This document shows, one piece after another, positions 45,029 through 60,919 of a stretch of DNA of 64,000 nt. Below the pieces are notes generated by a model. That model was not told the origin of the DNA. It ran no database searches and saw nothing but the letters and a program-made list of their open reading frames with translations. The first letter of the stretch is position 1; each line of letters opens with the position of its first letter. A program made the translations under genes and the position numbers. The stretch lies in assembly GCA_003156805.1 (NCBI GenBank), contig PMHV01000018.1:17022-81021 (forward strand), given 5' to 3'. This DNA comes from Acidobacteriaceae bacterium (GTDB lineage Bacteria; Acidobacteriota; Terriglobia; Terriglobales; Acidobacteriaceae).

Positions 45029-45049
45029 TCGTCTATCGTCTATCACCTA
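45029..45049. repeat. Degenerate 7-bp tandem array at the 3' end of an ABC gene
   Basis: Three 7-base units (TCGTCTA, TCGTCTA, TCACCTA) directly next to the stop codon of the minus-strand ABC ATPase at 45047. Same class as the other 7-base arrays in the window. Confidence 0.7.
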
Positions 45050-45760
45050 TCCCGGCGGCAGCAACATTCCTTTTTCCAGATGCCGCGTCACATGCGCGTA
45101 AGAAGCTGCGTGCGGATCGTGCGTCACCATCACGACGGTCTTGTGGAAGTCTTCATTCAACCGCTTCAGGATTTCCAGAACTTCCGTGGCCGAGTGGCTG
45201 TCCAGGTCTCCGGTAGGCTCGTCCGCAAGGAGCAGCGTAGGGTCGCTGACGATGGCGCGGGCGATGGCGACGCGCTGTTCCTGTCCGCCAGAAAGCTGCT
45301 TGGGCAGATGGTTGACGCGGTCTTCCAATCCCACCAGCCTGAGCGCGGTGATCACGTGATCCCGCCTTTGGTTGGGCTTGAGACGGGTGAGCAGCAGAGG
45401 CAGTTCCACGTTCTCAAACGCGGTGAGTACGGGGATCAGGTTGAAGGTTTGAAACACGTAGCCAATGTGCTCGTTGCGCCAGTGCGCGGCCTGTGCGTCA
45501 CTGAAGCCGAAAACGTTCTTGCCCTGCACCAGCAACTCGCCGGCGGTGGGCTTGTCGATGGCAGCGATCATGTTCAGCAGCGTGGTCTTGCCCGAGCCGG
45601 ACGGTCCCATGAGGGCGAGGAATTCGCCGGTGGCGATGTCAATGGAGACATCGTCGAGAGCTTTCACTTCAAAAGCATCGCGCTTGAAAATCTTGCTGAC
45701 ATTGCGAGCTTGCACCACCTTGGTGCCAGTGGCAACGTTGGTTTCAGCGACTGGACTCAT
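45047..45760 (-). CDS. ABC transporter ATP-binding protein (MacB/LolD-like)
   Basis: A 237-residue ATPase of the MacB/LolD family: Walker [10 protein letters not shown]-loop FQTFNL, signature [14 protein letters not shown], Walker [14 protein letters not shown]-loop VTHDP. The ATG overlaps the adaptor stop (ATGA). It is the sole ATPase for the adaptor and three FtsX-type permeases transcribed before it, so it probably powers a MacB-type export or lipoprotein-release machine at the inner membrane. Confidence 0.95.
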
Positions 45761-47130
45761 GATTGCCCCTTAATCTTGATTTTGTCTCCATCTTTCAAAG
45801 TCTGTGGCCCGTTGGTGACCACATTTTCGCCTCCGACCAGACCGTCGACCAGAAACCCATCGCTGCGCTGGCTCACGACGTGAACCCCGCGCATGTGCGC
45901 TTTTCCGTCGAAGGCTACGAACACAACTTTCTTGCCCTCATAGTCGCGCACGGCACCGGTGGGAACCACCGCACCTGCAGGCTGCGTGGTCGTGGTCTTC
46001 TGTTCATTGGCCAGGAACTTGACGGTCGCGTTCATCTCCGGGCGAAGATACTCGTCCGGGTTCAGAACTTGCACCTTCACCTGCACCGTCGCCTTCTGCC
46101 GGTTTGCTTCCGGAGAAATCTGAGCGATTTCGCCGTTATATTTGCGGTCCGGGTAAGCGTCCACGGTGACGACGCCTTTCTGCTTTGGACCGAGACGGGC
46201 AAAATCGGCTTGCGCGATGTCGAGCTCGACCTGAAGATCGTTCAGGTCCGCCAGCGAAACAACCGATCCCTGCGGACCACCCGCGGCCGCGCTGGCGAAC
46301 TGGGCCGTGATCAGTTCGCCTTTTTCGGCCGTGCGATCGAGAATCGTTCCGGTCACAGGTGCGCGGATAACAGTGGCATCGAGCTGCGACTTGGCATAAT
46401 CCAGTTGCCCCTGGGCCTGGCTCAAGGCTCCGCGGGCGCGCGCAATCTCTTCCTGCCGCGGGCCAATCTTCATTAATTGAAATGCTTTGTCGAGAGAATT
46501 TACCCGTTGCTGGTCGGAATCGAACTTGGCCGTGGCATCGTCAAGAGCTTGCCGTGAAACTACTCCCGCGCCGGCCAGTTCTTTGGTGCGGTCGAGCGTG
46601 AGCTTGTCATTTACCAGCGTGGCGCGGGCCTCGTCCAGATTATGCTGCGCCTCCTGAATCTCTTCCGGGCGCGAGCCGTGCTCAAGTTCATCGAGATAAG
46701 CGCGAGCATTGTCCAGCGCCCCTTGTGCTTGCTCTTCGGAAGCGCGGAACTCCTGATCTTCCAAACGCACCAGCACCTGGCCTTCCTTGACCTTATCGCC
46801 TTTTTCCACGCCAATCCACGCCAGACGGCCGGTGACCTTGGAATTCACATTGATCGTGTGATGCGCAACGATGTAACCCGTGGCGGAGAGAACGATGTCA
46901 CCGGTGTCGCTGGCCTGAGCGGCGGCGCGCGCGACTTCTACTTCGGGCACATCGGCCGAGAGCAGGCGATACGCCAGCGCCGAAACGCTCAGCAGACAAA
47001 CCACGGCGATTCCAATGATGATATAGCGGCGCGCCCAAGCGGGGGTTTCTCCTGTCCCGCCGCTATCCCCCCGCGGCGCGCGGTCGATGCGCAAGCTCTG
47101 CAAGTCGTCGTGTTTGGCATCAATCGGCAT
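45757..47130 (-). CDS. HlyD-family periplasmic adaptor protein
   Basis: A 457-residue membrane-fusion protein. After ATG 47130 a TM anchor (about 31-52: [18 protein letters not shown]) precedes the barrel-sandwich half-motif [19 protein letters not shown], a long coiled-coil hairpin (about 115-235) and the barrel and membrane-proximal domains, typical of MacA-like adaptors. It overlaps the downstream ATPase by 4 bases. An upstream in-frame start at 47190 is possible but adds non-family residues. Confidence 0.92.
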
Positions 47131-47214
47131 AATGATTACTGTCTGTACGTGTAACTCTTCATCCCGGTTCCTTCGTTCCGGCCCCAGCATCCGTTTGCAC
47201 CGCGTTGCGGCCGA

Positions 47215-48378
47215 TCAGCCGCGCAGGGCGTTTAGAATGTTCTGCCGCGCCGCATGCCAGGCCGGGGCAAAACCGCCTACCAAGCCCATGATCAGAGCGA
47301 ACGCAATGGCAGCACCAGCCACTTCCCAAGTGATGCGCAAGCTGAAGACGACTTCACTAAATGTGACTGCATTCGAGGTCCCGGTCTGCATTCCGTTGAA
47401 GGGCAGCATCAGAAGAATTCCCGCCAACGCGCCCAGCAGGGCCAGCATAAGCGATTCGAGCACAAAGCAAGTCAAGATCGCCGGCCGCGAAAAGCCGATG
47501 ACGCGCAACGTCGCTATTTCCCGCCCGCGATATGCCACTGCGGCGTACATCGTATTCATCGCCGCGAAACTCGATCCAATCGCCATAATCACCGCGACTA
47601 CAATTCCGATGTACTCGATGGGCGCTCCCGAACTGGTTTGCTTGGCGTAGTAATCGGTTTCCAGCATGCCTTCGAGCTTCAGCCGTTGATCGTCGCTAAC
47701 GCGATTCTTCAGCGCGTCGGCCGCGATGGGATCGGTTGCGCGCAAATAGGCCGAAGCATAACCTCCCTGGCGGTCGAAATCCGCCGCCATTTGATTCACG
47801 TCGGACCAGATTTCGGATTCGTAGGCCGAACCTCCGGCGTCGAAGACTCCAACCACTTTCCACTGGCCTTTGCCGAAGTCCATGCTGTCGCCGATGTTGG
47901 CGTGAGAAAAGCGGTCGCGAATGGATTTGCTGACCACCACCTCACGCTGGCCGGTTTGGAACCATCGTCCTTCAATCAGCTTCGCGCTGGGGCGAAGTTC
48001 CAGGCCGTCGGGCATCATGCCGCGGACGGTAACGTTCACTTCGCCGGTGCCGTCTTTGCGCGGCAGCACCACCACCACCACCCACTCGCCCGAAGTCAGG
48101 GGTTGCCCCCGGCTATCTTTCGCGATGCCGGGCAGAGTCGTAAGAGTGGGGTAGAGCGCCGCATCGAAACCGCCGGAAAGCTCGGCTTCCGATCCCTTGC
48201 GCAGCACCAACACGTTCAGCGAATTGCCACTCGAAACGAAAGCGCGACGCAGGCCCGCCAGCAGCGCCATCAGGAAAATAGCGGTGGTAACCGTGAGCGC
48301 AATGCCCAGCGCGGTCATGATGGTAAGGCCTTTTCGCAGCCTGAGATTGCGAATGTTGTAGCTGATCGGTATCGCCAT
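47215..48378 (-). CDS. FtsX-like ABC permease (third in operon)
   Basis: 387 residues with MacB topology: N-terminal TM in RKGLTIMTALGIALTVTTAI, a periplasmic domain and three C-terminal TM segments with REIATLRVIGFSRPAI. It differs from the two preceding permeases, which are near-copies of each other, and so may be the partner half of a heterodimer. It lies 41 bases after the second permease; the adaptor starts 84 bases on. Confidence 0.92.
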   Translation of the reverse strand: MAIPISYNIRNLRLRKGLTIMTALGIALTVTTAIFLMALLAGLRRAFVSSGNSLNVLVLRKGSEAELSGGFDAALYPTLTTLPGIAKDSRGQPLTSGEWVVVVVLPRKDGTGEVNVTVRGMMPDGLELRPSAKLIEGRWFQTGQREVVVSKSIRDRFSHANIGDSMDFGKGQWKVVGVFDAGGSAYESEIWSDVNQMAADFDRQGGYASAYLRATDPIAADALKNRVSDDQRLKLEGMLETDYYAKQTSSGAPIEYIGIVVAVIMAIGSSFAAMNTMYAAVAYRGREIATLRVIGFSRPAILTCFVLESLMLALLGALAGILLMLPFNGMQTGTSNAVTFSEVVFSLRITWEVAGAAIAFALIMGLVGGFAPAWHAARQNILNALRG

Positions 48379-48419: not shown

Positions 48420-49571
48420 TCAGCCGATGTGGCGCAGTCCTTCCACAATATTCATACGCGACGCGTTGTGGGCGGGTAAATAGCCGCTCAAAAAGCCCAC
48501 CGTTGCGGCCACCAGCAATGACAGCGCCATGGTGGGCGCGGTGACCTTCATGTCGAGGGGAATGCCAATGGCGATCGGAGAATGGGTCAAGAATTCGATC
48601 AATACGGCCGCCCCCAGGATACCGAACAATCCACCAACGGCCGCCAGCGCGACCGCCTCCCCAACAAACAGCGAAAGCACGCGCTGCCTGGTAAACCCCA
48701 ACGTCTTTAGAACTGCCACCTCCCGCGTCCGGCTGCGAACTGACATTGCCATCGTGTTCGCCGAAACCAGCAGCGTAGTAAACACAACCGCGCCGCAAAT
48801 CCCGAGGATAAAGGCCTTCACGTTGCCCAACGTCGCGACAAAAGAGAGCTGAAAGGCTTTTTCGCTCTCGGTTTTCGTTTGCAGCGGCGCATTGCGGAAC
48901 ATGTCGTCGATTTCTTTTGAAACTCTCGCCACGTCGTCCGCTGACGCCACTTGCGTGGAGTACCATCCCGCCTGTCCCTTGAACCAGTTCACGGATTCTT
49001 CGACATACTTGGTGTTGAAGTACAGCGAGTTCTGCGGCGGATCGCGATGGTAGATGGCGCGGATCGTCAACTCGGGGTTCACGGGAAAAATCGTGCCCAG
49101 CAGAGTGATGCGATCGCCAATCTTCCAGCCGTATTTTTTCGCCAGCGTGATATCGACCAGCGCGCCGGCGCGGTCGCGCTGCCAGGCCGCCACTTGATCG
49201 GCCGGCACAATCTTGTCAGACGCAACCTTCAGGTACTCATCGGGGTCGGTCGCTATCTGCGCAAAGAAGTTCTCAGGACGGTCATCCTTGTAGCGGCCGC
49301 CAAACCAGGTCATGGGCGCAACCGCGGTTACTCCAGGAACGGCGCGAATCTTGTCCCGGTAATACCCGGGAAGAAGAAAAGACAGAGAAACACGATCGCG
49401 AGTAATCACGCGCCTTGCCGCTTCGGGAGCCGCTTGATCGATGTAAAACGTCCGCCAGATCGACATCATCAGCGTAAGCAGAAGCAGCGAGAAGCTGATG
49501 CTCAGCAATGTCAGCAGGCTGCGCCGCTTATTGCGGAACGTGTTGCGCAAAATGAAACTGCTCAGCGTCAT
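48420..49571 (-). CDS. FtsX-like ABC permease (second copy of a tandem pair)
   Basis: 383 residues: N-terminal TM after RNTFRNKRRSLLTLLSIS, a periplasmic MacB-like domain and three C-terminal TM helices with VRSRTREVAVLKTLGFTRQ. It shares long stretches of near-identity with the permease just upstream, for example AFQLSFVA...LGNVKAFIL and VVFTTLLVSANTMAMS. ATG 49571 was chosen because family sequence starts there; an earlier frame start at 49619 would overlap the preceding gene's end. Confidence 0.9.
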   Translation of the reverse strand: MTLSSFILRNTFRNKRRSLLTLLSISFSLLLLTLMMSIWRTFYIDQAAPEAARRVITRDRVSLSFLLPGYYRDKIRAVPGVTAVAPMTWFGGRYKDDRPENFFAQIATDPDEYLKVASDKIVPADQVAAWQRDRAGALVDITLAKKYGWKIGDRITLLGTIFPVNPELTIRAIYHRDPPQNSLYFNTKYVEESVNWFKGQAGWYSTQVASADDVARVSKEIDDMFRNAPLQTKTESEKAFQLSFVATLGNVKAFILGICGAVVFTTLLVSANTMAMSVRSRTREVAVLKTLGFTRQRVLSLFVGEAVALAAVGGLFGILGAAVLIEFLTHSPIAIGIPLDMKVTAPTMALSLLVAATVGFLSGYLPAHNASRMNIVEGLRHIG

Positions 49572-49590
49572 AATCTCAACCAGGTTTGTC

Positions 49591-50739
49591 TCAACCAATG
49601 TGCCGCAGACCCTCGACAATCCCTATCCGCGATGCGTTATAAGAGGGGATTAACGAACTCAGAAATCCAACGACCGCCGCTACCAATAAGGCCACGACCA
49701 TGGTCTGCCAGGTAATCGCCATGCTGCCCAGGAAAAAGCCCACGGGCGATTGCTTGGCCATGAACAGCAGGAGCCACGCAAAGGCCGCTCCGAATAATCC
49801 GCCAGCCAGCGACAGCGAAACAGCTTCGCCGACGAACAGGCCCAGGATGGTTTGCCGCCCAAAGCCCAGAGTTTTCAGCACCGCGACTTCACGCGTGCGC
49901 TCGCGAATGGACATCGCCATGGTGTTCGCCGAAACCAGCAAGGTGGTAAACACAACCGCACCGCAAATGACGAGAATGAACGCCTTAACATTGCCCAGCA
50001 TGGCCACAAAGCTCAACTGAAACGCTTTTTCGCTCTCGGTTTTGGTGGGCTGCGGCGAGTTGCGAAACGTATCATCCACGGCGCTCGCCACTTTGCTTAC
50101 ATCTTCGGCCGTGTCGGCCATAATGCTGAAAGTACCAGCCTGGCCTTTGAAAAAAGCCACCGCTTCCTCGACATACTTCGTGTTGAAATAAACAGTTTGG
50201 TTTTGCGTGGGAAACGAATAGATCCCGCGGATGGTAAGTTCCAGGTTGACGGGATAGATCGTTCCCAGAAGAACAATGCGATCGCCCAGCTTCCAGCCGT
50301 GCTTTTTGGCCAGCTCGTCATTCACGATGGCGCCGGCGCGGTCGCGCTGCCACGCCGCAGCCTGATCGGGTGGAAGGCTCACATCCGGAAACACTTTGAA
50401 AAATTCGTCGGGATCCACTCCGAATTGCGCGAAGAAATTTTCCGGCTTGTCATCTTTGTAGAGACCGCCGAACCAACTCACAGGGACAACCGCAACCACC
50501 CCGGGAATGGCTCGAATTTTCTCCCGATAAAAGCTGGGGAGCGAGTTTGTCAGAGAAACCCGGTGCCGGGTTACCAGCCGGCGCGCCGAGTCCGGGCTTC
50601 CTTTGTCCATGTAGAAGCCGCGCCACAGAGTCATCATGAACGTCAGCAGGAGCAGCGAAACGCCGATGCTGGCGACGGTCAGGATGCTGCGCCGCTTGTT
50701 GCGGAAGGCGTTCTTGGTGACAAACCGGGTCAGAGTCAT
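49591..50739 (-). CDS. FtsX-like ABC permease (first copy of a tandem pair)
   Basis: 382 residues from ATG 50739 (GGGA about 7 bases upstream). Topology as in MacB permeases: a TM after KNAFRNKRRSILTVASIG, a periplasmic domain with VPVSWFGGLYKDDKPENFFA, and three C-terminal TM helices. It is the first gene of the operon: three permeases, adaptor, ATPase. The frame stays open to 50949, but that extension is not family-like. It appears to be a paralogue by tandem duplication of its downstream neighbour. Confidence 0.9.
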   Translation of the reverse strand: MTLTRFVTKNAFRNKRRSILTVASIGVSLLLLTFMMTLWRGFYMDKGSPDSARRLVTRHRVSLTNSLPSFYREKIRAIPGVVAVVPVSWFGGLYKDDKPENFFAQFGVDPDEFFKVFPDVSLPPDQAAAWQRDRAGAIVNDELAKKHGWKLGDRIVLLGTIYPVNLELTIRGIYSFPTQNQTVYFNTKYVEEAVAFFKGQAGTFSIMADTAEDVSKVASAVDDTFRNSPQPTKTESEKAFQLSFVAMLGNVKAFILVICGAVVFTTLLVSANTMAMSIRERTREVAVLKTLGFGRQTILGLFVGEAVSLSLAGGLFGAAFAWLLLFMAKQSPVGFFLGSMAITWQTMVVALLVAAVVGFLSSLIPSYNASRIGIVEGLRHIG

Positions 50740-51334
50740 TGGTGAATCCCTGGGAAGCCGGAGTGGGTGGAACGAGGGCGCGCGCCCCACGCGACGCTCA
50801 AGAATAAATGAATTCGCGTCCCACCGACAACCCACCGCCACGCCGAGATGTGAAAACAGTCCCTCAGCACGCCGGAAGAACCTCTTCTGAATCATCCGTC
50901 TGCGAGATTCGGCTCGCCAGTGGAGATCGTCATCCGGGCTGCATGACAAATGTCACAATGCTGAGTTCTAACCCAGTACAACTCTCCGCAGCCTGGAAAA
51001 GTTACGGCGCTCTCGCGATGACGCTTTTGGGTTGGGTCAGGCTGAACCTTGCCCGAATCTATCCCGTCCCTCAGCGTGGAGAAAAACGCCGGAAGAGAAA
51101 CATCAAGCCCGGCGGCCCGGGCGTTACTGGGCCCGCGCGATGCCCTCTGTCTGCGGCTTCAGTGGTTCTCTGATACCCAGAAATCGACGATTCCCGCGAG
51201 TACCTTGGTAACTCGAAGCTCTGTCCTGTGGGAGATATCCTAGCCTTACTCTGCCCCGGAATTCGACCCGAGCGGCATTGCTTGAGGAAGCACGTCACGG
51301 GTCTTTCCAATGACGAGGCTAGGTAGCAACGTCC
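50740..51334. other. Gene-free divergent region (595 bp) with an inverted repeat
   Basis: Upstream of both the ABC operon (minus) and the kinase-like gene (plus). TGACA-aa-TGTCA at 50944-50955 is a compact inverted repeat about 205 bases upstream of the first permease and could be an operator. AT-rich patches are small. The open frame at 50808-51173 lacks protein-like features and is not called. Confidence 0.45.
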
Positions 51335-53884
51335 ATGAAAATCGGCCACTTCGAAATACTGAGTGAACTGGCGAAGTCTGCCACCGGCGCGGTCTATAAG
51401 GTCAGCGATCCGCAGAACGGCCAAACGGTCGCGCTGAAGGCGATTCAATTGTCTGCCTTTGGCGAATATTCTGCGGAATTGGAAAAGTGTCTTCTGGAAG
51501 AGGCCGAGAACACCAAACAGCTGAATCAGCCCAACATCACCACCGTTTACGGCGCCAGTGCGATCGAAGGACAACTCTGCGCCGCCATGGAATACATCCA
51601 GGGCAACAGCATCGCCACGATGCTGGCGCGCAAGGAAGGATTCTCCATCTGGGACTTGCTCGATATCGGCAGGCAAGTGTGCAGCGGACTGGACCACGCA
51701 CATAACCACAAAGTTTTCCACTATGGTCTGGAACCGGCCAAAATTATGTGCGGGTGGGATGGAACGGTCAGAATTCTTGGATTCGGCATGTCTAGCGTGG
51801 GACGGTTCACGAGGCACATGCCGAGCGGCGTTCCCGCGCTTCTGCACTATATGTCTCCGGAGCAGGTTCATGGTGAAGCGATCGATGCGCGGTCGAACCT
51901 GTTCAGTCTGGGCGCCATTTTCTATGAGATGGTGACCGATCAAAAAGCATTCGATGGCGAGGATTCCGACTCCTTGCGTCAAAGCATCACGGAGAGCGAG
52001 CCTCCGCCGCCGCTGTCGCTGAATCCTAAGCTGCATCCTTTGCTGAGCGATCTGGTCATGAAGGCTCTGGCCAAGGATCCAGAGCAGCGCTACCAAAGCG
52101 GAAGAGAACTGCTGGACGATCTGGAGAGCTGCAAGGAATCGAAGGCGCAAGCGGCGAAAAAAGCAGTAGAGGCGCCGAAGGCCTCCGCCGTTCCAGACCA
52201 GGTCAAAGCCGCGGCCCAGGCAAAGTTCATTGCTTCCGCTGCTCCGCAGCCGAGTCCGGCGAAACCCGCAAGCGCGGTCGCCGCTCAGGTCCGTCCCGCA
52301 GCAGCACGGGCCTCATCAGCCCCGCCGCCCGAAAAACGGTTTGTCTCTCCTGCCTCAAGCAAAGCGCCTGCACAAGCGGCGACACCGGAGCCCACTCGCG
52401 TGCCGAAGGCGGCTGCAGCGGCCGCTGCGCGAGTCGCTGGCGCAGCGCCAGCGTCTGCTACCGATACTCCGGAACTCGACATATCAAACCAGTTCGTTTC
52501 CTCTTGCGTCAAAGCCACAATTGGCGCCGCGGGCTTGCCTGTATCTTCCATGTCGGCCGCAACTCTCGAGCCGGCGGTGGAAGCTCCGGAGGCCGAGAAA
52601 CAAGGACCAACCATCGCATTCGATCCCATGATGGCTGCAGGCGGTCCGACCCGCGGCAGCAGCGTGAGCTTTTCTGAGATCAGCGAACTGCCCCCGCTCA
52701 AGAAAGAAGTCTTCGTCGCGCCGCCTCCACCGCCTCCGCCACCCTTCGAGCCGGAAGTTCCCTTAATGGCCGCGCTCAAGTCTGGCCGCGAGCCGGAAAA
52801 GCCAAAGATCCAGCCGCGCGAAGTCGCCGGCAAAGCGATTAAAGAAATAAAGAACGTACCGCCGCGCCTGATGATGTACTCAATTGCGGGCGCGGCTGTC
52901 TTGATTCTCATTATTGCCGTTGGACTGTTCGTTCACATTCACGATTTGAACAGCGATGACGATTCGGCGCGCTCCTCGGTCGTGGCGGCGCCACAGGCTG
53001 CCACTCAAACGGCTGCGCAGCTGGCGCCCGTGCATTCCCAACCTCAGTCCGCAGCCACAACTGAAACTCAGCCTCCTGCTGCGCCTGACGTAGCTGAACC
53101 AGTGCCAACCCGGGCAGCATCGGGAGCCAGAAACTCCCGCAAGAAGCCGGTGGTGCCGGTGGCGCCCGTAATCGTGCCGGGGCAGATGGCGATCGATTCG
53201 ACCCCGCAAGGCGCACAAGTACAGGTCGATGGAAAGACCGACCCCACCTGGATTACACCTTTCACTCTATCGGGTGTAAATCCTGGACAGCATGCGGTCG
53301 CAGTCAGCAAGGCCGGTTATTCTACCGACACACGCACCATCGAAGTGGCCTCGGGAACCAAGCTGTTTGTTGTGACCCATCTGGCCCAGTTGCTGGCGAC
53401 GCTCGCCGTTTCCAGCAACCCGGCAGGTGCGAACGTCTATGTGGATGGCAAAGACACGGGCAAGACGACGCCCGCGCAAGTCAGCGTGGACAAAGGCCAA
53501 CACGTCGTCGTCGTGCGTAAGTCCGGTTACATCGACGAGACTACCAGCGCACCGTTTGTCCTGGGACAAACCGTCAGCTTCTCGCCGAGTTTGCGGCAGT
53601 TGGGCAACGTCGACGACATCAAGACGGTCGGGAAGATGAAGAAGCTCTTTGGCGGCGGCGCGGCCCAGGGGATGGGACAGGTCAGCGTTAAGACTGAGCC
53701 CAAAGGCGCACAAATCGCGGTCAACCAACATATGCTGGAGAAGAACTCGCCGGTCGAGTTCATGCTCGATCCCGGCAATTACGTCGTCGACATTACCCTC
53801 AGCGGCTACGCGCCGGTTCACAAAATCATCACGGTGGACAAGGGCGGCAAGGTTGTTGTCGACGAAAGCCTGCAAAGGCAGTAG
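51335..53884 (+). CDS. Pseudokinase-like membrane protein with three PEGA repeats
   Basis: 849 residues. Residues about 5-265 have the bacterial Ser/Thr kinase fold, with Lys35 in VALKAI and a YMSPEQ (172-177) activation-loop end. The catalytic HRD loop reads HYGLEP (129-134), so the base Asp is missing. The DFG motif reads GFG (149-151), so the Mg-binding Asp is missing too. The glycine-rich loop (LAKSATGAVY) is also weak. A long Ala/Pro-rich linker (about 270-500) leads to a TM helix (about 512-534) and three PEGA domains (about 616-685, 688-750 and 781-847) that would lie outside the membrane. Phosphotransfer therefore looks lost; the fold may act as a binding scaffold. Convergent with the receiver-TonB gene. 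Confidence 0.88.
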   Translation: MKIGHFEILSELAKSATGAVYKVSDPQNGQTVALKAIQLSAFGEYSAELEKCLLEEAENTKQLNQPNITTVYGASAIEGQLCAAMEYIQGNSIATMLARKEGFSIWDLLDIGRQVCSGLDHAHNHKVFHYGLEPAKIMCGWDGTVRILGFGMSSVGRFTRHMPSGVPALLHYMSPEQVHGEAIDARSNLFSLGAIFYEMVTDQKAFDGEDSDSLRQSITESEPPPPLSLNPKLHPLLSDLVMKALAKDPEQRYQSGRELLDDLESCKESKAQAAKKAVEAPKASAVPDQVKAAAQAKFIASAAPQPSPAKPASAVAAQVRPAAARASSAPPPEKRFVSPASSKAPAQAATPEPTRVPKAAAAAAARVAGAAPASATDTPELDISNQFVSSCVKATIGAAGLPVSSMSAATLEPAVEAPEAEKQGPTIAFDPMMAAGGPTRGSSVSFSEISELPPLKKEVFVAPPPPPPPPFEPEVPLMAALKSGREPEKPKIQPREVAGKAIKEIKNVPPRLMMYSIAGAAVLILIIAVGLFVHIHDLNSDDDSARSSVVAAPQAATQTAAQLAPVHSQPQSAATTETQPPAAPDVAEPVPTRAASGARNSRKKPVVPVAPVIVPGQMAIDSTPQGAQVQVDGKTDPTWITPFTLSGVNPGQHAVAVSKAGYSTDTRTIEVASGTKLFVVTHLAQLLATLAVSSNPAGANVYVDGKDTGKTTPAQVSVDKGQHVVVVRKSGYIDETTSAPFVLGQTVSFSPSLRQLGNVDDIKTVGKMKKLFGGGAAQGMGQVSVKTEPKGAQIAVNQHMLEKNSPVEFMLDPGNYVVDITLSGYAPVHKIITVDKGGKVVVDESLQRQ

Positions 53885-54093: not shown

Positions 54094-55866
54094 TTATTGA
54101 GGTAATTTGAAGTTGACCGTGATCTGCGTCTCAATCTCCACAGGTTCGCCGCTCAGGCGATAGGGTCTGTACTTCCACTTTTTCACGGCATCTACCGCGG
54201 CCTGCGCCAGAAGCGGCTGGCCGCTCAGAACTTTCACTGCCGTGATGTTTCCCCTCTCGGAGATCGTGGCCAAGAGCTGCACCGCACCTTCCAGGCGCAT
54301 GTGCAAAGCCGTTGCCGGATAGATCGGCTGCACTCTCTTCAGCAGCAATCCCTGCGAGACGCCTTGCGAGACATTCATCGCTTGCAGCACGGGTGGAGGA
54401 GCGCTTCCCGAATCGCCTACCAGGCTGGGCAGCGCACTGGCAGCAACGGCGACGCTCGGCGCGGAAGTGTCGGTGATAGATAAGCGATTGTCGGCGGATT
54501 GGTTCGGACTCTTCTTGACGACAATGGTTTGCGGCGAAGACTTGCCGGTAGGCTTTCCGCCCGATGCCGGCGAGGTCGCAGATCGCGTTGATTTCGATGC
54601 TATCGCTGGCGCCGCCTTGCCATTTGGTGAAGCTGTCTCGTCCTCGGACGAGGTCGTGGCCGGCTGAGCCGCTATACTGTCCACGCGTGTCGCAGCCAGC
54701 GGTGCCGGCGGCGTCGAAGGAATCTTGGCGGCCGCCTTCGGCGGCGAGCCGCCCCCACTAACCGGCTGAGCCGCGGACTGAAGGGGCCCACTCGCTTTGC
54801 CCATCCACTGCGTCCACGTCATATAGGCCAGAGCGGGAAGCAACGCGATGGCGGTGATTGCCAGCAGCAGCTTCTTGTTTTGACCACCGGCAGACTCGGT
54901 TCCTGCGCTCACTGTACCGCCGAACATCAACGGTGGCGCGGGCGAAATCGCTTCATAGTGGGAATCGTGTTCGTGTGGAGCGTTTTTCTCGTCTTCACCT
55001 TCCGTTTGAGCGTCAACGTGAGGTTGTGTCTCCACAGTTGGAGCGCTTGGTAACGGTTCGCGAGCCGGGGCTGGAGCGCTGGCGGCACCTGTCCCGAATG
55101 CAGAAGTGGCCGTTGACGAGAATCCATCGCTTGAAACAGGAGTTGCGGTGGATACGATCTTCTCCGTTTCAACATTCGCGGATGACGCCGATTCGGGTGC
55201 GGAAGCACCCACAGGTAATGTTTCCCCTGTTGCAGCCGAAAGTGAAGGCTGAGCAGGTTCGTCCAGCTTCGCCTCAGGAGAAGTGGTTTTGGATGCCGCA
55301 GCGGGAGCAAGACGCTCCGGGAGCAGTTTCGAGGGTTGGTTCTGAGGTTTGGTTGCAGCGGCGGCCAGCCGGGCTTCTGGGCGCGTTGTCGCACCGGTTG
55401 CAGCGGAGGCTTGCGGGACTGAGATTTGAGCGCCCGGCGCTAAGCTGGCGGGCTTGGCGGTTGCCGTCGCAGCCGCGGCAGCGGGCTTTGCCATCTCCCC
55501 CTTGCGAAGCAGTCCACGCGCAACTCGCAGCGTACCTTTCGCCTGCTCCACATTGATGGGCTTGGTCAGAACCAGGTTTGCGCCGATGCGAAAAGCCTTT
55601 GCCACTCCGGCTTGCCCTTCCACAATGGCCACGGCCAGGGACGATTGGTTGTTCGGCGAATTGCGGGCACTCTTGAACAGCAGCGTGGCGTTCTGCTCGT
55701 TATCGCAGGTCACCACCACTGCGTCGAAGTGCTCGCCCACCAGCTTCTTGACGGCAGCAAAAGGTTCAGAGCAGGGCACAACCGTGAAATCGAGTTCGCT
55801 GAGCACCTGAGTGACGGTGCGTGCGGTTTTCTCGTCGGGACAAAACAGGAGCGCTTGATAGCCCAT
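54094..55866 (-). CDS. Receiver-like domain - TM - TonB C-terminal protein
   Basis: 590 residues. Residues 1 to about 120 form a response-regulator receiver fold with Lys102 in VLTKPI intact, but at the phospho-acceptor position (VVVTCD) Thr53 replaces Asp, so phosphorylation is unlikely. A long Ala/Ser/Pro-rich linker follows, then a TM helix (about 331-349), a second Pro/Ser-rich spacer (periplasmic) and a TonB C-terminal domain (about 510-590: VQPIYPATALHMRLEGAVQL and AAVDAVKKWKYRPY). TonB ends couple inner-membrane energy to outer-membrane receptors, but no ExbBD is nearby. Acidobacteria often attach TonB_C to other domains. Confidence 0.85.
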   Translation of the reverse strand: MGYQALLFCPDEKTARTVTQVLSELDFTVVPCSEPFAAVKKLVGEHFDAVVVTCDNEQNATLLFKSARNSPNNQSSLAVAIVEGQAGVAKAFRIGANLVLTKPINVEQAKGTLRVARGLLRKGEMAKPAAAAATATAKPASLAPGAQISVPQASAATGATTRPEARLAAAATKPQNQPSKLLPERLAPAAASKTTSPEAKLDEPAQPSLSAATGETLPVGASAPESASSANVETEKIVSTATPVSSDGFSSTATSAFGTGAASAPAPAREPLPSAPTVETQPHVDAQTEGEDEKNAPHEHDSHYEAISPAPPLMFGGTVSAGTESAGGQNKKLLLAITAIALLPALAYMTWTQWMGKASGPLQSAAQPVSGGGSPPKAAAKIPSTPPAPLAATRVDSIAAQPATTSSEDETASPNGKAAPAIASKSTRSATSPASGGKPTGKSSPQTIVVKKSPNQSADNRLSITDTSAPSVAVAASALPSLVGDSGSAPPPVLQAMNVSQGVSQGLLLKRVQPIYPATALHMRLEGAVQLLATISERGNITAVKVLSGQPLLAQAAVDAVKKWKYRPYRLSGEPVEIETQITVNFKLPQ

Positions 55867-56001: not shown

Positions 56002-56610
56002 ATGCGCATCCCTCTCTGGCTGAAGATTTGCTGGACGGCCGGCGTGGCCGTATGGCTGCCGCTCTATTGGCGTCACTACGGCCTGCAGAATTTTCTATTC
56101 TTCTGCGACCTGGGCAATCTCTTTATCATGCTCAGCCTTTGGCTGGAAAGCTCTCTGCTGTTTTCCTGGCAGGCGGTGAGCCTGCTCCTGTTTCAGACAT
56201 TGTTCTGTATCGATCTGCTGGGCGCGGTGCTGACCGGACGGCACCTCGTCGGCGGGACGGAATTCATGTTCGACCCGCAGGTTCCGTTGGCAATTCGCTT
56301 ACTGAGTCTGTTTCACCTGATCGCGCCGCCGCTGTTGCTGTGGGCGGTCTGGCGCCTGGGTTACGACCGCCGCGCCTGGAAGTTTTCCACGCTCACTGCC
56401 TGGATTGTGATTCCCATCAATTACTTCTGGCATCCGGAGTTCGATGTCAACTGGGCCCGCGGCCCGTTTTTCCGCGAGCAAACTTTCATGCCGGGATGGG
56501 CCTACTTGCTCGCATATCTGTTGGCCGTGCCGGCTTTCGTGTATTTCCCGACGCATCGGTTTCTCCTATGGCTGAGCCGCCGATGGCATCCAAGTCCATA
56601 TATCCGCTAA
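56002..56610 (+). CDS. Small polytopic membrane protein
   Basis: A 202-residue integral membrane protein with about six hydrophobic segments from ATG 56002 (MRIPLWLKICWTAGVAVW...). The loop FDPQVPLAIRLLSLFHL and the segment YFWHPEFDVNWARGP resemble a conserved but uncharacterised membrane family. The frame opens at 55921, but the first 27 residues are not hydrophobic or family-like. It overlaps the convergent methyltransferase end by 4 bases. Function unknown. Confidence 0.65.
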   Translation: MRIPLWLKICWTAGVAVWLPLYWRHYGLQNFLFFCDLGNLFIMLSLWLESSLLFSWQAVSLLLFQTLFCIDLLGAVLTGRHLVGGTEFMFDPQVPLAIRLLSLFHLIAPPLLLWAVWRLGYDRRAWKFSTLTAWIVIPINYFWHPEFDVNWARGPFFREQTFMPGWAYLLAYLLAVPAFVYFPTHRFLLWLSRRWHPSPYIR

Positions 56611-57164
56611 CTCCCGAATAGCAGCATCTTGACCACTAGCGCCGTCGTTATAGCTGCGGCTCCAAGAAGAGCGTTGTACTCACGGTGCTTCAGATAGAGC
56701 GCCCACGAAAATTCCTCATGATGGCCGTCCGCAAGACCGGATCGCGGTGCAAGTCTCGGCACCAGTCTTGGCACTCGCTTCGCGTAGTCGCTGAACTCGA
56801 CAAACTTCTGCCGCAGAAATTCCTCTTCGCTGCGGATCACGGGAACGTAGATGGCGAGAAACATCACGACCAGCATGAATCCGATCCACCAACTGCGCGC
56901 TGCGACCGCAAAGCCTACGCCGATCAGCACCGAACCAAGGTAAAGCGGATTGCGTGTGTAGGCATACGGCCCCGAAGTCGCCAGAGCTTCGTTCTTCTGC
57001 ACGTGGCCCGAAGCCAGCGCGCGAATCAGGAGTCCGGGCACGATCGCAATCGCTCCCAGCGCCAAGAAGTGCCACGTGGGCCGAGCCAGCCACAAATAGA
57101 GCACGGTAAGAGCGAAGCCCAGCGGCACGCGAATGCGGCGCGCGATGTGCCGCCACTCAGCCAT
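56607..57164 (-). CDS. Isoprenylcysteine/phospholipid-type membrane methyltransferase
   Basis: 185 residues. Several hydrophobic segments surround the PEMT/ICMT-type motif SGPYAYTRNPLYLGSVLI (about 64-81) and the later SEEEFLRQKFVEFSDYAKRV, which form the SAM and active site of this membrane methyltransferase family. A lipid or prenyl acceptor is likely, but the substrate is unknown. It lies 27 bases after the heptosyltransferase stop and is the last gene of the LPS core run. Confidence 0.88.
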   Translation of the reverse strand: MAEWRHIARRIRVPLGFALTVLYLWLARPTWHFLALGAIAIVPGLLIRALASGHVQKNEALATSGPYAYTRNPLYLGSVLIGVGFAVAARSWWIGFMLVVMFLAIYVPVIRSEEEFLRQKFVEFSDYAKRVPRLVPRLAPRSGLADGHHEEFSWALYLKHREYNALLGAAAITTALVVKMLLFGS

Positions 57165-57191
57165 GGGTGTGATTCATTCGAACGTTACTCA

Positions 57192-58271
57192 TCATGAGGA
57201 ACTTTCCACAAGTAACCTGCGCGCTGCCGCAACCACATCGCCGGCGCTTATCTCGAGCAAACCCGCGTCCGGCGCAGCGCGGCGCGCGTGCGTGGTAGAG
57301 CTTGCCCGGTTGCGCAGCACGCTGCTTCGAGTGGCAAAAGGGCCGTTGCGCGCGGGATCTGTCGGGCCAAAAATCGCGACCACCGGCACTCGCAGCGCTG
57401 CGGCAAGATGCATGGGGCCGGTATCTCCGCCAATGAAGAGCCGCGCCCGGCGCGTCAGTGCTATCAGTTCGGTAATCGTGCCGCTCCACGGCTGCGCCGC
57501 GCCGCCACTCGCGACCTCGGCCACGCGCGCTAACTCCTCCTCGCCCGGACCGTAATTCAAAATCGAGCGCACACCGTCTTCGCCCAGCTTGCGCGCCACT
57601 TCGCCGTAACGCTCCGCCGGCCAGCGCTTTGCTCCCCAACCCGCACCCGGATTCAGCATCGCGAAGCTGCCGACGCCCCTTTCGCGCAGCCGCTGATCGA
57701 TTCGCGCCTCAGTCTCCGGATCGCGGGGAAGTTCTACACCCGGCATTACCATTCTCGCTTGCGACACGGCTTCCGCGATAGACAAATTCTGCTCGACCAC
57801 GTGCGCTCCGCGCGCGATCACCTCCCGCGTGTACCACAAGCTGGCGGGAGATTCTCGGGCCTCGGCTGCGCCATAGACCATTCGAGCCCCGGACCAATGC
57901 GCCAGAAGCGCCGAGCGTATCGCCCCCTGCAGGTCAATGGCAACATCGTAGCGTGCGGCGCGCATGTCGTTCCAAACCTTCGCAGCCTGCTGCAACGTGT
58001 GAATGGAATACAGCGACTTCCTCCACCCCGCCAGGTTGATGGCGTGTACTTCATTCACCACGGGCCGCTGCGCCGATCGCGGCCCACGCCGGGGCGCCCG
58101 TGCGGCGCACAGAAGCTCGGCCCAGCGCTCTTCGACAATCCAACCGATGGTCGAGTCCGGGAACGCCGCTCGCAACGCGGCAACCGCAGGCAGCGTATGA
58201 ATCACGTCGCCCATCGCGCTCAGGCGCACGATCAGCAGGCGCTCGATTTGTGGACGATTTGCTTTTGACAA
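57192..58271 (-). CDS. waaC: LPS heptosyltransferase I-like (GT9)
   Basis: Transfers heptose from ADP-heptose to the Kdo of the LPS inner core. 359 residues from TTG 58271. The GT9 N-terminal motif IVRLSAMGDVIHTLPA is at about residues 13-28, and the C-terminal donor-binding part includes LFIGGDTGPMHLAAAL and IFGPTDP. A start with AAGG about 8 bases upstream gives family-like length; TTG 58367 (overlapping the rfaE2 stop) would add 32 non-family residues. Symbol given by context with rfaE1/E2 and kdtA. A 92-base gap separates it from rfaE2. Confidence 0.88.
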   Translation of the reverse strand: MSKANRPQIERLLIVRLSAMGDVIHTLPAVAALRAAFPDSTIGWIVEERWAELLCAARAPRRGPRSAQRPVVNEVHAINLAGWRKSLYSIHTLQQAAKVWNDMRAARYDVAIDLQGAIRSALLAHWSGARMVYGAAEARESPASLWYTREVIARGAHVVEQNLSIAEAVSQARMVMPGVELPRDPETEARIDQRLRERGVGSFAMLNPGAGWGAKRWPAERYGEVARKLGEDGVRSILNYGPGEEELARVAEVASGGAAQPWSGTITELIALTRRARLFIGGDTGPMHLAAALRVPVVAIFGPTDPARNGPFATRSSVLRNRASSTTHARRAAPDAGLLEISAGDVVAAARRLLVESSS

Positions 58272-58363
58272 CTGATCAACCTTCTGCGCCGTAACGCCGG
58301 TCACGCCTGCGGGTCCGCTCAGGGATAGAAATTGGTGCTTTGTCCTCCAGCGCTCCTGTGGCC

Positions 58364-58852
58364 TCAACCATGTTTCCCCGGGAGCCGTGCGCGGATGATT
58401 TCAGTCGTAGAATGATTTTTCGCGTCGCCCACAATCTCGACGCGTCCTCCACAGGCGATGACCGCGTCCCGCTCAGGAACCGAATCTCTTGCGTAGTCCG
58501 TTCCTTTGGCCTGTATGTCGGGACGGATCTCGTGAATGAGCGCGCGTACATCGAGTTCGGAAAAAATCACAACCGCATCCACGTCTTCCAGTGCGGCAAC
58601 AATTTCCGCGCGCTCCGCCGCGGGCATAATCGGCCGGCCTTCCCCTTTCAGTGCGCGCACCGAGTCGTCGGAGTTGACGGCGACCACCAGCTTTCCACCC
58701 AGTTGTTTCGCTCCGCGCAAATAGCGCACGTGGCCCACATGCAGCAAATCAAAGCCCCCGTTGGCCAGAATGATGCGCTCGCCGGCGCTGCGCCATTCTT
58801 CTATGCGCGGGCGCAATGTGCTGCGTTCCAGGATTTTCTTACTGTCGCTCAA
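58364..58852 (-). CDS. rfaE2: D-glycero-beta-D-manno-heptose 1-phosphate adenylyltransferase
   Basis: 162 residues. The nucleotidyltransferase signature ANGGFDLLHVGHVRYL (HxGH) is at about residues 30-45, and KGTDYA and the late GDAKNHSTTEII occur as in the C-terminal half of HldE. It makes ADP-D-glycero-beta-D-manno-heptose. Here it is a separate gene, split from the kinase gene, and overlaps the kinase stop by 4 bases (ATGA), preserving coupling. Confidence 0.93.
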   Translation of the reverse strand: MSDSKKILERSTLRPRIEEWRSAGERIILANGGFDLLHVGHVRYLRGAKQLGGKLVVAVNSDDSVRALKGEGRPIMPAAERAEIVAALEDVDAVVIFSELDVRALIHEIRPDIQAKGTDYARDSVPERDAVIACGGRVEIVGDAKNHSTTEIIRARLPGKHG

Positions 58853-59880
58853 TGAGATCTTGTGGCCGGCGGTGCTTGCTCCAGAGCGTCCAACAATTCC
58901 TGCCGCGAAACTGTGGCCGTGCCCCGCTTCATCACCACGATTCCACCGGCATAGTTGGCAATGTGCGCCGCTTCCTGTGTACTGGCGCCGGCGGCCAGCG
59001 CGGCCGTAAATGCCGCAATCACGGTATCGCCCGCGCCGGTAACGTCGGCCACTTCGTCGGAACCATAAATCGGAATGTCCACCGGTTTGTGCCGCTGGTC
59101 GAAAGCCACCATTCCATCGCGGCCGCGCGTGATCACCAGCGACTGCAGCTTCATCCGGCCCATCACTTGTTTGCTCGCCGCAATCAGCTTGTCCCAGTTG
59201 TGCCCGATGCGAACGCCCAGCGCTTCCTCCACTTCCGGCTCGTTCGGCGTTGCCGCGGTGACTCCGGCGTATTGCAGCAGCCGGTAACGCGAATCGAGAA
59301 CAATGGGCACCGGCGTCCGAGTCTTGACGTTTAGCGCATTCACCAGCGCCGGAGTCGCCGAGCCGTAGCCGTAGTCCGACACCAGCAGCGCGTCCGACGC
59401 GCGCAAATACTCTCGCGCGGCCAAAAACAATTCGCGCGTCAGATGCGCGTTGGGCGCTTCGGCAGGCTCACGATCGATGCGCACCACCTGCTGGCGCGAC
59501 GTGTGCGCCATGCCGGCGAGGATGCGCGTCTTGGTCACAGTGGTGTAGCTCTTGTCCTTGAGCACTCCACTGATCGGAATTTGTTTGTGACGAAAATATT
59601 TCAGCAGCAATCGCCCGGGCTCGTCGTCTCCAACCACGCCCACCGGCAGCACTTTCACTCCCAGGTCAGCCAGATTGTTCACCGCGTTGGCGCCGCCTCC
59701 AGGGGCGACCGTGCGTTCGCGGTGCTTGAGAATCAGCACCGGCGCCTCGCGCGACACCCGCGAAATTTCGCCGAAAACAAATTCGTCGGCCACCAGATCT
59801 CCCAGCAATGTGATGGTGACCTGGGGAAACGCCTCAATGATTCTCTTCAGGCGCTCGGCTTCTTTGAAATGTTTCGTCAT
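58849..59880 (-). CDS. rfaE1: D-glycero-beta-D-manno-heptose 7-phosphate kinase (HldE N-terminal type)
   Basis: 343 residues of the PfkB/ribokinase family from ATG 59880 (MTKHFKEAERLKRII...). ERTVAPGGGANAVNNLADLG is the sugar-binding signature and VTGAGDTVIA carries the catalytic Asp of the second PfkB signature. It phosphorylates heptose 7-phosphate at O1 in the ADP-heptose branch. Frame extensions upstream (59922, 60063) are not family-like. It lies 46 bases after lpxK. Confidence 0.94.
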   Translation of the reverse strand: MTKHFKEAERLKRIIEAFPQVTITLLGDLVADEFVFGEISRVSREAPVLILKHRERTVAPGGGANAVNNLADLGVKVLPVGVVGDDEPGRLLLKYFRHKQIPISGVLKDKSYTTVTKTRILAGMAHTSRQQVVRIDREPAEAPNAHLTRELFLAAREYLRASDALLVSDYGYGSATPALVNALNVKTRTPVPIVLDSRYRLLQYAGVTAATPNEPEVEEALGVRIGHNWDKLIAASKQVMGRMKLQSLVITRGRDGMVAFDQRHKPVDIPIYGSDEVADVTGAGDTVIAAFTAALAAGASTQEAAHIANYAGGIVVMKRGTATVSRQELLDALEQAPPATRSH

Positions 59881-59926
59881 GCGATATGGCGCTGGATTGT
59901 CAGACTCGCCCGCCTGTCGCATTTTC

Positions 59927-60877
59927 TCATGCCTTGCCACGCCGCTCCGCGAGCATGCGCAGCATGGAATCCACGGCGTTAGCTGCGCTGGCAAGCTCCA
60001 TTGTGACCCGAACCACCGACAACGGCTTGAGCGCGGAAACATATCCCCCCAGGTTGACCGCATCTTTTTCGGTGGTCACAAACCCTCCGGCTTCGCTGTG
60101 CTGCTTGAGTTGCACGAGTTCGCTTACGTCTTTTTCCGTGTAGGCATGATGATCGCGATAGAAAGCCTCCGCCACCGGCTCAACATTTGCCGCGCGCAAC
60201 TGCAGCAAGAAGTTCCGCGGACGCGCGATGCCGCAGAATACCACCGGCTTCGGTGGAACATTTTCCAGGGCAATTCCCCGCCGCACGCGCCACATCAGTT
60301 TGCCCCCCAGCGGAAATGAATCCGCCGACGCTCCGCCCACCAGCGCAACCGCATCCGCTCGCCGCAACGATTTCAGCGGCTCACGCAATCGCCCGGCCGG
60401 AAGCAGACGGTCGCGCGCATCCTCGGGCGTCACCAGCACAATCTCGAAATCGCGGGCCAGCGCGCGATGTTGAAATCCATCGTCCAATAAATGCATCTGC
60501 GACGCGAACCTCGACTCGGCAAACTGTCCAGCCGCGAAGCGATCTTCCCCAACCACGACCGGAACCTGCAGCCGCCGCGCCAACAGCAGAGGCTCGTCCC
60601 CGAACTCCTGCGGCAGCCCGTTCGGGTCCACAGAAAGTACGCCACGAGTCTTGCGCCCGTAGCCGCGGGAAAGAATGTCGAATGCAACGCCGCGCGCCTT
60701 CAGCAATTCACCCAGCAGAATCACGAACGGCGTTTTGCCTGCGCCCCCGGCGGAAACATTGCCAATGCTGACCACTGGTTTTTTCAACTGTCGTGCCGGC
60801 AATATTCCGTGGTCGTAGAGCGCGTTACGCGCCGCCACCGCCGTTCCGTAAATTGCCGGCAGAGGATTCACATTCAT
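59927..60877 (-). CDS. lpxK: Tetraacyldisaccharide 4'-kinase
   Basis: Phosphorylates the 4' position of the lipid A precursor at the inner membrane. 316 residues from ATG 60877. The nucleotide-binding loop is SIGNVSAGGAGKTPF (about 36-50), preceded by a hydrophobic N-terminal helix, and LDDGFQHRALARD is the catalytic Asp region. Length matches LpxK. Upstream frame sequence comes from the end of kdtA read out of frame and the 15-bp repeats, so it is excluded. Second gene of the operon. Confidence 0.95.
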   Translation of the reverse strand: MNVNPLPAIYGTAVAARNALYDHGILPARQLKKPVVSIGNVSAGGAGKTPFVILLGELLKARGVAFDILSRGYGRKTRGVLSVDPNGLPQEFGDEPLLLARRLQVPVVVGEDRFAAGQFAESRFASQMHLLDDGFQHRALARDFEIVLVTPEDARDRLLPAGRLREPLKSLRRADAVALVGGASADSFPLGGKLMWRVRRGIALENVPPKPVVFCGIARPRNFLLQLRAANVEPVAEAFYRDHHAYTEKDVSELVQLKQHSEAGGFVTTEKDAVNLGGYVSALKPLSVVRVTMELASAANAVDSMLRMLAERRGKA

Positions 60878-60883
60878 AGCATG

Positions 60884-60919
60884 ACCGTCATAGCCTGGAC
60901 CGTCATAGCCTGGACCGTC
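60884..60919. repeat. Tandem 15-bp repeat at the kdtA/lpxK junction
   Basis: ACCGTCATAGCCTGG occurs twice in direct tandem (60884-60898, 60899-60913), with a partial third copy to 60919. It spans the end of kdtA and the space before the lpxK ATG, so copy-number change would alter the spacing and the kdtA C-terminus. Confidence 0.8.

Follow-up and report, generated by a model that had tools for sequence, protein, structure and literature searches.

Can a protein that has lost the catalytic machinery of a protein kinase still be kept by selection, and if so, for which task? This question is raised by an open reading frame (ORF) in a 64,000-nt stretch of DNA, hereafter the window, from the 5.03-Mb assembly of an Acidobacteriaceae bacterium (G000 in our genome set). 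The gene encodes a kinase-like domain, a transmembrane helix, and three PEGA domains (Table 1). A first-pass annotation made from the sequence alone had proposed that phosphotransfer is lost and that the protein is a scaffold binding something on the cytoplasmic face and reporting to the PEGA repeats outside. On balance, we lean toward reading it as an ancient, catalytically dead, membrane-anchored pseudokinase that acts as a docking scaffold. Bacterial pseudokinases are little studied, and the proteins described here, which come from a group of soil bacteria, allow the decay of the active site to be followed on one tree.

Predicted fold and loss of the catalytic residues

The kinase-like part is predicted with confidence to adopt a Hanks-type kinase fold. 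Pfam assigns Pkinase to residues 9–254 (E 5.5e-33). The AlphaFold2 model of this domain alone, calculated with a 60-sequence alignment, has a predicted local distance difference test score (pLDDT) of 91.5 and a predicted template modeling score (pTM) of 0.88. Its top Foldseek match is PknB of M. tuberculosis (6b2p; E 2.9e-21; query-based template modeling score, TMq, 0.75). In the full-length model (58-sequence alignment; mean pLDDT 73.9, pTM 0.47), the kinase domain ends near residue 270 and is followed by some 210 linker residues, most of them disordered. A helix at 494–506 precedes the transmembrane helix at about 510–540; beyond another disordered stretch, the beta-rich PEGA part starts at about residue 616. 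The PEGA profile (PF08308) matches three stretches (E 1.2e-40; 137.7 bits against a curated cut-off of 20.8), and Pfam finds PEGA in 58/58 members of the clade described below. As basic residues (KAIKEIKNVPPR) precede the transmembrane helix and acidic ones (NSDDD) come after it, the kinase-like part is probably cytoplasmic and the PEGA domains are probably outside.

The ORF translation reads HYG at residues 129–131 (51719–51727), where active kinases have HRD, and GFG at residues 149–151 in place of DFG; Lys35 and the YMSPEQ stretch (172–177) are retained. These motifs had been noted in the first-pass annotation, which nevertheless understated the loss, since Glu133 replaces the loop Lys and Lys136 replaces the metal-binding Asn. 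The Gly loop (KSATG) is missing its first two Gly residues. Of the residues expected in an active Ser/Thr kinase, HRD-Asp, loop Lys, Asn, and DFG-Asp, the window protein has none.

We compared the protein with its orthologues in two sets, 37 genomes of the same genus (labeled Candidatus Sulfotelmatobacter or Acidobacteriaceae) and 100 sampled genomes of the family. An orthologue is present in 36/37 genus genomes, the exception being G028; two orthologues reach contig ends, one being cut (G013) and one spread over two contigs (G021). All four catalytic residues are missing in 36/36 genus sequences, one per assembly. It is therefore very unlikely that the altered motifs stem from an error in sequencing or assembly, and we dismissed that explanation. 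The inactive state is conserved among the orthologues, as would be expected of a real pseudokinase, but the HYG triplet is peculiar to the window: the HRD-Asp column holds Ser in 35 of the 36 genus sequences, Gly in the window alone, and the relatives mostly read HYS.

For wider tallies, 60 domains were aligned, 35 from the genus and 25 from 24 other genomes; these exclude L035 (cut at the 5′ end), the partial L075, L078, in which the gene is split over frames, G116, whose contig carries no kinase part, and the duplicates L058–L060. The HRD-Asp column contains no Asp in these 60 domains; it holds Ser in 56, and Gly, Ala, Thr, and Arg in one each. The loop Lys is replaced by Glu in 59 and the Asn by Lys in 59 (Asn in 1/60), and a single domain keeps the DFG-Asp.

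Selection was estimated from the ratio of nonsynonymous to synonymous substitution rates (dN/dS) by the method of Nei and Gojobori (NG86) for 12 chosen pairs of genus orthologues; with several dS values above 1, these ratios should be taken as approximate. The pseudokinase domain gave 0.042–0.146 in 11 of the 12 pairs, a low ratio which argues that the domain is not a relic. In the same pairs, linker residues 269–438 gave 0.122–0.529; the motif stretch 439–466 (25–27 codons) gave 0–0.18 in nine pairs and no value in one. With the catalytic set gone from a whole clade under purifying selection, the loss of phosphotransfer is strongly supported at the level of sequence.

In the family sample, an orthologue of the window's type was found in 30/100 genomes, three of them from the window's genus. 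The kinase part is missing, partial, or split in three family genomes (G116, G132, and G135). In G135, the pseudokinase gene (L078) is spread over several frames, through an assembly error or as a broken copy, and G108 has two copies of the gene on separate contigs (L110 and L064). In a profile search of 200 class and 199 phylum genomes, the two members of the window's genus scored 514 and 528 bits, and no other genome exceeded 292 bits. Since the relevant genera were sparsely represented in these samples, the search bounds the range rather than settling it.

The family also contains nine divergent PEGA pseudokinases without HRD-Asp (L085, L087, L089, L090, L092, L094, L096, L102, and L109), which keep the DFG Asp (9/9) and mostly the Asn (8/9) and carry Arg for Lys35 in 7/9. 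In addition, 19 rows were taken as active PEGA kinases, being HRD-intact and scoring >190 bits with the profile of the pseudokinase clade itself. The earlier statement that PEGA kinases are usually active is thus half right: active and inactive lineages are both common in the family.

A tree was built without the catalytic columns and with 13 of the 36 genus rows; a quick search method and long branches limit it. One branch (support 95 in the Shimodaira–Hasegawa-like approximate likelihood ratio test, SH-aLRT) splits 49 rows without visible HRD-Asp, among them L075, a pseudokinase cut before HRD, from 30 HRD rows. Without four long rows (L089, L096, L102, and L109), 45 pseudokinase rows remain and the support is 100. 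If the root lies on the active side, a single loss of the HRD-Asp followed by differing decay would be the simplest reading. HRD-Asp is gone from all pseudokinase rows, and from there the window's clade appears to have dropped the metal ligands and kept the β3 Lys, while the divergent nine keep the DFG Asp and mostly exchanged Lys for Arg.

A conserved, presumably exposed patch and a linker motif

αD–αE and β7–β8: Mean pairwise identities were calculated within two sets, 25 pseudokinases (the window and 24 from outside the genus; L073 omitted) and 17 active PEGA kinases from the family, which are all of the 19 rows but L108 and L117. Over the whole domain, the pseudokinases are less alike than the active kinases (59.7% vs 68.0%). 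The same holds for the Gly loop (47.6% vs 84.3%), the activation segment (34.3% vs 68.6%), and the catalytic loop plus DFG (72.0% vs 86.7%). The relation is reversed for αD–αE (YIQGNSIATMLARKEGFSIWDLLDIGRQ) plus the β7–β8 turn, with 79.7% in pseudokinases, the highest value among their regions compared, vs 43.3% in active kinases. The 20-residue segment with the largest gain is 94–113; its gain was matched in 0/2000 position shuffles, a rough guide only, since shuffling positions breaks the correlation between neighbors.

W106, F103, and W141: W106 is Trp in 60/60 domains of the clade, and the same column holds Glu, Asp, or Gln in 19/19 active kinases. Because active kinases carry charged or amide residues there, W106 is expected to be exposed and is probably a surface residue. 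F103 is Phe in 60/60 clade members, 3/9 divergent pseudokinases, and 0/19 active kinases. W141 is likewise invariant in the clade. αD, αE, and the β7–β8 turn adjoin in the kinase fold and form the docking groove of mitogen-activated protein kinases (MAPKs).

Linker motif: The linker varies in length, and its motif starts anywhere from residue 349 to 479 among the orthologues. The consensus is (S/T)FS(E/D)xx(E/Q)(L/M)PP(L/M), and the sole exception among 59 proteins, L080, reads SFSAVTELPPL. A scan of the region after the kinase domain in 34 other sequences (25 HRD-intact, nine divergent) did not find it; of these, L085 shows only an LPPL, and L089 ends ahead of its linker. A DNA pattern for the motif has one match in the whole genome, inside the pseudokinase gene, and each of the 44 motif matches among the ORFs of L001 and of the loci from L038 on was assigned to the pseudokinase gene.

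Gene context

The pseudokinase gene is flanked by a divergent cluster for an ATP-binding cassette (ABC) exporter and a convergent gene for a TonB_C protein (Table 1). The neighbor counts cover 39 loci (38 genomes) and exclude loci for which just 1.5 kb of flank had been fetched. A gene of the divergent transporter cluster lies in 21/31 loci with at least 3 kb of upstream flank, and the convergent TonB gene lies in 12/32 loci with at least 3 kb of downstream flank. In G014, the TonB gene is on the same contig, some 23 kb from the pseudokinase. Both neighbors accompany L079, the clade member least similar by kinase domain (47%).

By genome, the TonB gene is present in 28/30 family genomes with the pseudokinase vs 1/70 without it, and the permease in 28/30 vs 6/70. 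Presence was set at ≥191 bits for TonB (next score 167), a line drawn after the list had been seen, and at ≥470 bits for the permease (next score 282). As Fisher values assume an independence that related genomes do not have, we read the association as co-inheritance and not as functional proof.

In the TonB_C neighbor, the putative receiver-like N-terminal domain is far better conserved than the remainder of the protein. At its putative phosphoacceptor position, the window has Thr; all 17 other readable rows, of which three are second copies, have Asp. The protein had no match in the virus collection. In L061, L067, L071, and L112, the TonB_C gene is duplicated in tandem beside the pseudokinase.

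Beyond the TonB gene, 56607–62297 (−) encodes a methyltransferase, GT9, a cytidylyltransferase, a PfkB kinase, LpxK, and KdtA, apparently for lipid A/lipopolysaccharide. At 38912–40081 (−), one ORF joins a SIS domain to a HAD-type phosphatase, perhaps a fused heptose-phosphate isomerase/phosphatase.

Table 1 Features of the pseudokinase gene and its neighbors (positions in the window)
Feature	Position	Strand	Basis
PEGA pseudokinase gene	51335..53884	+	ORF of 849 aa; Pfam
Pseudokinase domain, residues 1–270	51335..52144	+	Pfam Pkinase, AlphaFold2, Foldseek
Lys35 (β3)	51437..51439	+	60/60 aligned domains
Glu56 (αC)	51500..51502	+	60/60 aligned domains
αD–αE patch, residues 87–114 (YIQGNSIATMLARKEGFSIWDLLDIGRQ)	51593..51676	+	identity high in the pseudokinase clade, low in active PEGA kinases
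Degenerate catalytic loop HYGLEPAKI (active kinases: HRDxKPxNI)	51719..51745	+	alignments
Trp141-Asp142, β7–β8 turn	51755..51760	+	60/60; Trp in 7/9 divergent, 0/19 active
GFG for DFG	51779..51787	+	metal-binding Asp missing in 59/60
Disordered cytoplasmic linker (predicted), residues about 278–489	52166..52801	+	AlphaFold2 pLDDT mostly <50; length differs among orthologues
Linker motif DPMM	52622..52633	+	44/59 linkers
Linker motif SFSEISELPPLKKE	52667..52708	+	(S/T)FS(E/D)xx(E/Q)(L/M)PP(L/M), 58/59 proteins
Transmembrane helix (predicted), residues 510–540	52862..52954	+	AlphaFold2 full-length model and sequence
Three PEGA domains (predicted periplasmic), residues about 614–849	53174..53881	+	Pfam; AlphaFold2 pLDDT >90 in most blocks
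TonB_C protein, convergent neighbor	54094..55866	−	TonB_C E 4.1e-19; transmembrane helix by eye; N-terminal receiver-like domain, weak evidence
MacB/FtsX-type permease, divergent	49591..50949	−	Pfam; true start probably further in
Second permease, divergent cluster	48420..49619	−	Pfam
Third permease, divergent cluster	47215..48378	−	Pfam
HlyD/RND_mfp periplasmic adaptor, divergent cluster	45757..47190	−	profile matches
ABC transporter ATPase, divergent cluster	45047..45760	−	ABC_tran E 1.8e-37

Discussion

In the window's clade, constraint has moved from the Gly loop and the activation segment to αD–αE and the β7–β8 turn. In a docking scaffold, this patch and the linker motif would bind cytoplasmic partners, or each other in trans. 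The three PEGA domains may act as anchors or sensors in the periplasm or cell wall, and the protein could couple the state of the envelope to an assembly on the cytoplasmic side. The likeliest clients would be the co-inherited neighbors, namely the receiver-like TonB_C protein and the ABC exporter with its three permeases, adaptor, and ATPase. The clade-specific patch and motif lend indirect support to the proposal that a scaffold binds on the cytoplasmic face. The loss of the catalytic residues, the fold, purifying selection, the moved constraint, the motif, and the gene linkage are demonstrated or confidently predicted; binding itself, the partner, and the direction of signaling are inferred.

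A narrower version is that this family of Acidobacteriota pseudokinases acts as peptide-docking receptors, in which a back-side groove of αD–αE and the β7–β8 turn and the SFS(E/D)xxELPPLKE motif bind in trans or share a partner, and PEGA-anchored assemblies gate the exporter or the TonB-linked protein. We put this forward tentatively, as a doubtful but attractive idea; if true, bacteria would have their own form of MAPK-type docking, one that involves no kinase.

Several observations weigh against a docking scaffold. The cytoplasmic partners are candidates only, and the conserved surface, whose exposure is presumed, could serve fold stability. W141 also occurs in seven of the nine divergent pseudokinases, which have neither the linker motif nor W106; the features of patch and motif therefore did not all arise together, W141 appearing to be older and W106 new in the window's clade. 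AlphaFold2 leaves the linker motif mostly disordered, and docking of the motif onto its own kinase domain, which we considered, is unsupported by the full-length model (pTM 0.47). Besides being approximate, the dN/dS ratios include one pair with 0.352 for the domain (dS 0.06), and the motif stretch is not uniformly low, with 0.291 and 0.624 in two of the 12 pairs. The adenine pocket is largely kept, and a role for bound nucleotide is possible. The fetched flanks show no exporter gene in 10/31 loci and no TonB gene in 20/32, and the co-occurrence of the neighbors is confounded by shared ancestry. For the receiver-like domain of the TonB_C neighbor, the evidence is weak: an RssB match below the cut-off (E 0.0064) and inspection of the alignment by eye, with no Pfam Response_reg match at 0.01.

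The kept pocket could instead mean that the domain is a ligand switch, in which ATP, a different nucleotide, or some small molecule is bound without metal and the bound state is relayed to the PEGA side. Lys35 and Glu56 are invariant (60/60), and V20 (54 of 60), A33 (59), M138 (58), E86 (58), and M85 (52), which we take to be spine, hinge, and gatekeeper positions, are mostly kept; with the pocket largely kept, nucleotide binding is still possible. The Gly loop, however, is variable (47.6% vs 84.3% in active kinases), and both metal ligands are lost (Asn 1/60, DFG-Asp 1/60), so that we judge such a switch unlikely, if well worth keeping in mind. An unusual transferase chemistry in the kinase fold is very improbable. 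Other chemistry in kinase folds is on record for the SidJ polyglutamase and SelO (PMC12599244), and nearly every clade member has Glu133 and Lys136 (59/60 each), but the general base and both metal ligands are missing, the activation segment is variable, and the window protein itself has Gly in place of Ser131. A decaying relic, of which the PEGA part alone is functional, would agree with the lost catalytic residues and with the one family genome in which the gene is split over frames (L078). It is contradicted by the low dN/dS of the kinase-like domain, by the presence of the gene in 36/37 genus genomes, and by a patch more conserved than in active kinases, and we consider it almost certainly wrong.

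The remaining explanation is that the protein activates or inhibits an active Ser/Thr kinase allosterically through a canonical back-to-back N-lobe dimer, as in PknB-type kinases. The genome offers kinases enough, with 29 kinase-gene matches, the pseudokinase itself and PEGA-only genes counted in. A kinase gene with intact HRD and DFG adjoins the pseudokinase on the same strand at L066:7130-9721, L085:2371-5019, and L090:2149-5097, of which L066 belongs to the window's clade. In PknB, R10, L33, and D76 matter for back-to-back dimerization; titles of PDB entries among the Foldseek matches name L33D, L33E, and D76A mutants, and our search of open papers found no account of PknB L33D or of the Leu33/Asp76 interface. 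We aligned the L33 and D76 columns directly and the R10 column via an active kinase. Active PEGA kinases have Ile (18/19) and Asp (19/19) in the L33 and D76 columns. In the 60 pseudokinases, the L33 column holds Ser (29), Thr (20), Gly (5), Asn (3), Ala (2), and Asp (1), with no large hydrophobic residue; the D76 column holds no Asp and Gly in 52, and Arg is found in the R10 column in 24/60. The window's clade has thus changed the residues of a PknB-type interface; if they have the role given above, a back-to-back dimer of the classical kind is unlikely, which weakens the idea of an allosteric partner.

An active PEGA paralogue was considered as that partner and rejected. Active PEGA kinases coexist with PEGA pseudokinases in six genomes (G085, G097, G109, G134, G137, and G139), all of which carry the divergent type. 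The 18 genomes behind the 19 active rows share none with the 30 that have the window's type, and the window's genus has no clear counterpart: its best other match scores 159 bits, vs mostly 190–235 for active PEGA kinases elsewhere. With G091 and G154 scoring 166 and 162, the absence of an active PEGA kinase from the genus is likely, not certain. Altogether, allosteric control through such a dimer seems to us rather improbable.

For the docking scaffold, constraint that has moved off the active site and onto one surface indicates which residues to mutate, and the function of a pseudokinase becomes a question of binding.

Comparison with known pseudokinases and PEGA kinases

An open-literature search on PEGA kinases and on bacterial and acidobacterial pseudokinases, judged partly by titles, found no description of such a protein, and the main text of a 2025 review of pseudokinases mentions neither PEGA nor Acidobacter (PMC12599244). 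As the families are described there, the window protein fits none of the seven (ActPs1, ActPs2, ActPs3, GLW, CP1, DYD, and DLHK), because it fails a defining feature of each. The comparison covered these seven described families, and the group may sit in another family of the underlying 42-family classification.

ActPs1: In this family, all three catalytic residues are substituted, the G-helix is often absent, and a PQQ domain is often present (PMC12599244). The window protein keeps Lys35, has a helix (211–220) at the αG position by our own assignment, and shows no PQQ among its Pfam matches.

ActPs2: Members have Arg for the β3 Lys, Asn for the HRD-Asp, mostly a DFG deletion, and large insertions (PMC12599244). 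Here, Lys is kept, Ser or Gly stands at the Asp position, and GFG or SFG occurs without deletion.

GLW and CP1: GLW pseudokinases read GLW for HRD and have Leu or Trp for the β3 Lys, and CP1 pseudokinases have no transmembrane segment and carry a COG3899 domain (PMC12599244). The window's clade has HYS or HYG and Lys; a transmembrane helix is predicted, and no extra ATPase domain is among the Pfam matches.

DYD and DLHK: The β3 Lys is replaced in both, by Arg in DYD, and DLHK keeps the HRD-Asp and has no transmembrane segment (PMC12599244). In the window protein, Lys is kept, the HRD-Asp is lost, and a transmembrane helix is predicted.

ActPs3 and MviN: The pseudokinase domain of MviN, of the ActPs3 family, is reported to be a scaffold that recruits FhaA once phosphorylated by PknB; ActPs3 members have an activation-loop deletion, fully degraded motifs, and a constrained back-to-back dimer interface (PMC12599244). 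MviN resembles our protein as a pseudokinase in a bacterial membrane protein with a reported scaffold role. The window protein differs in that Lys35 and Glu56 are kept, the activation segment is present, the PknB-type interface is changed, and the outer part is PEGA.

EssB/YukC: These proteins are laid out as an inner pseudokinase, a transmembrane segment, and an outer part. They are pseudokinases within the type VII secretion machine (PMC9600267; also named in PMC12599244). No type VII secretion gene is among the annotated neighbors in the window, and the outer part of the window protein is PEGA.

MAPKs: The patch lies in fold elements that match the MAPK docking groove, as assigned from the AlphaFold2 model, with the location taken from secondary structure only. 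The window protein is not a MAPK, and a peptide partner is a candidate only.

Active PEGA kinases: The closest relatives compared also consist of a kinase domain and three PEGA domains (e.g., L098); their kinase-domain matches are mostly 33–41% identical, and they lie on the opposite side of one branch of the tree. They retain GxGxxG, HRD, Lys, Asn, DFG, and mostly GTPxYMSPEQ, from which the window's clade departs. In turn, Trp at positions 106 and 141 occurs in 0/19 of them and the linker motif was not found in them, whereas both Trp residues are invariant in the window's clade.

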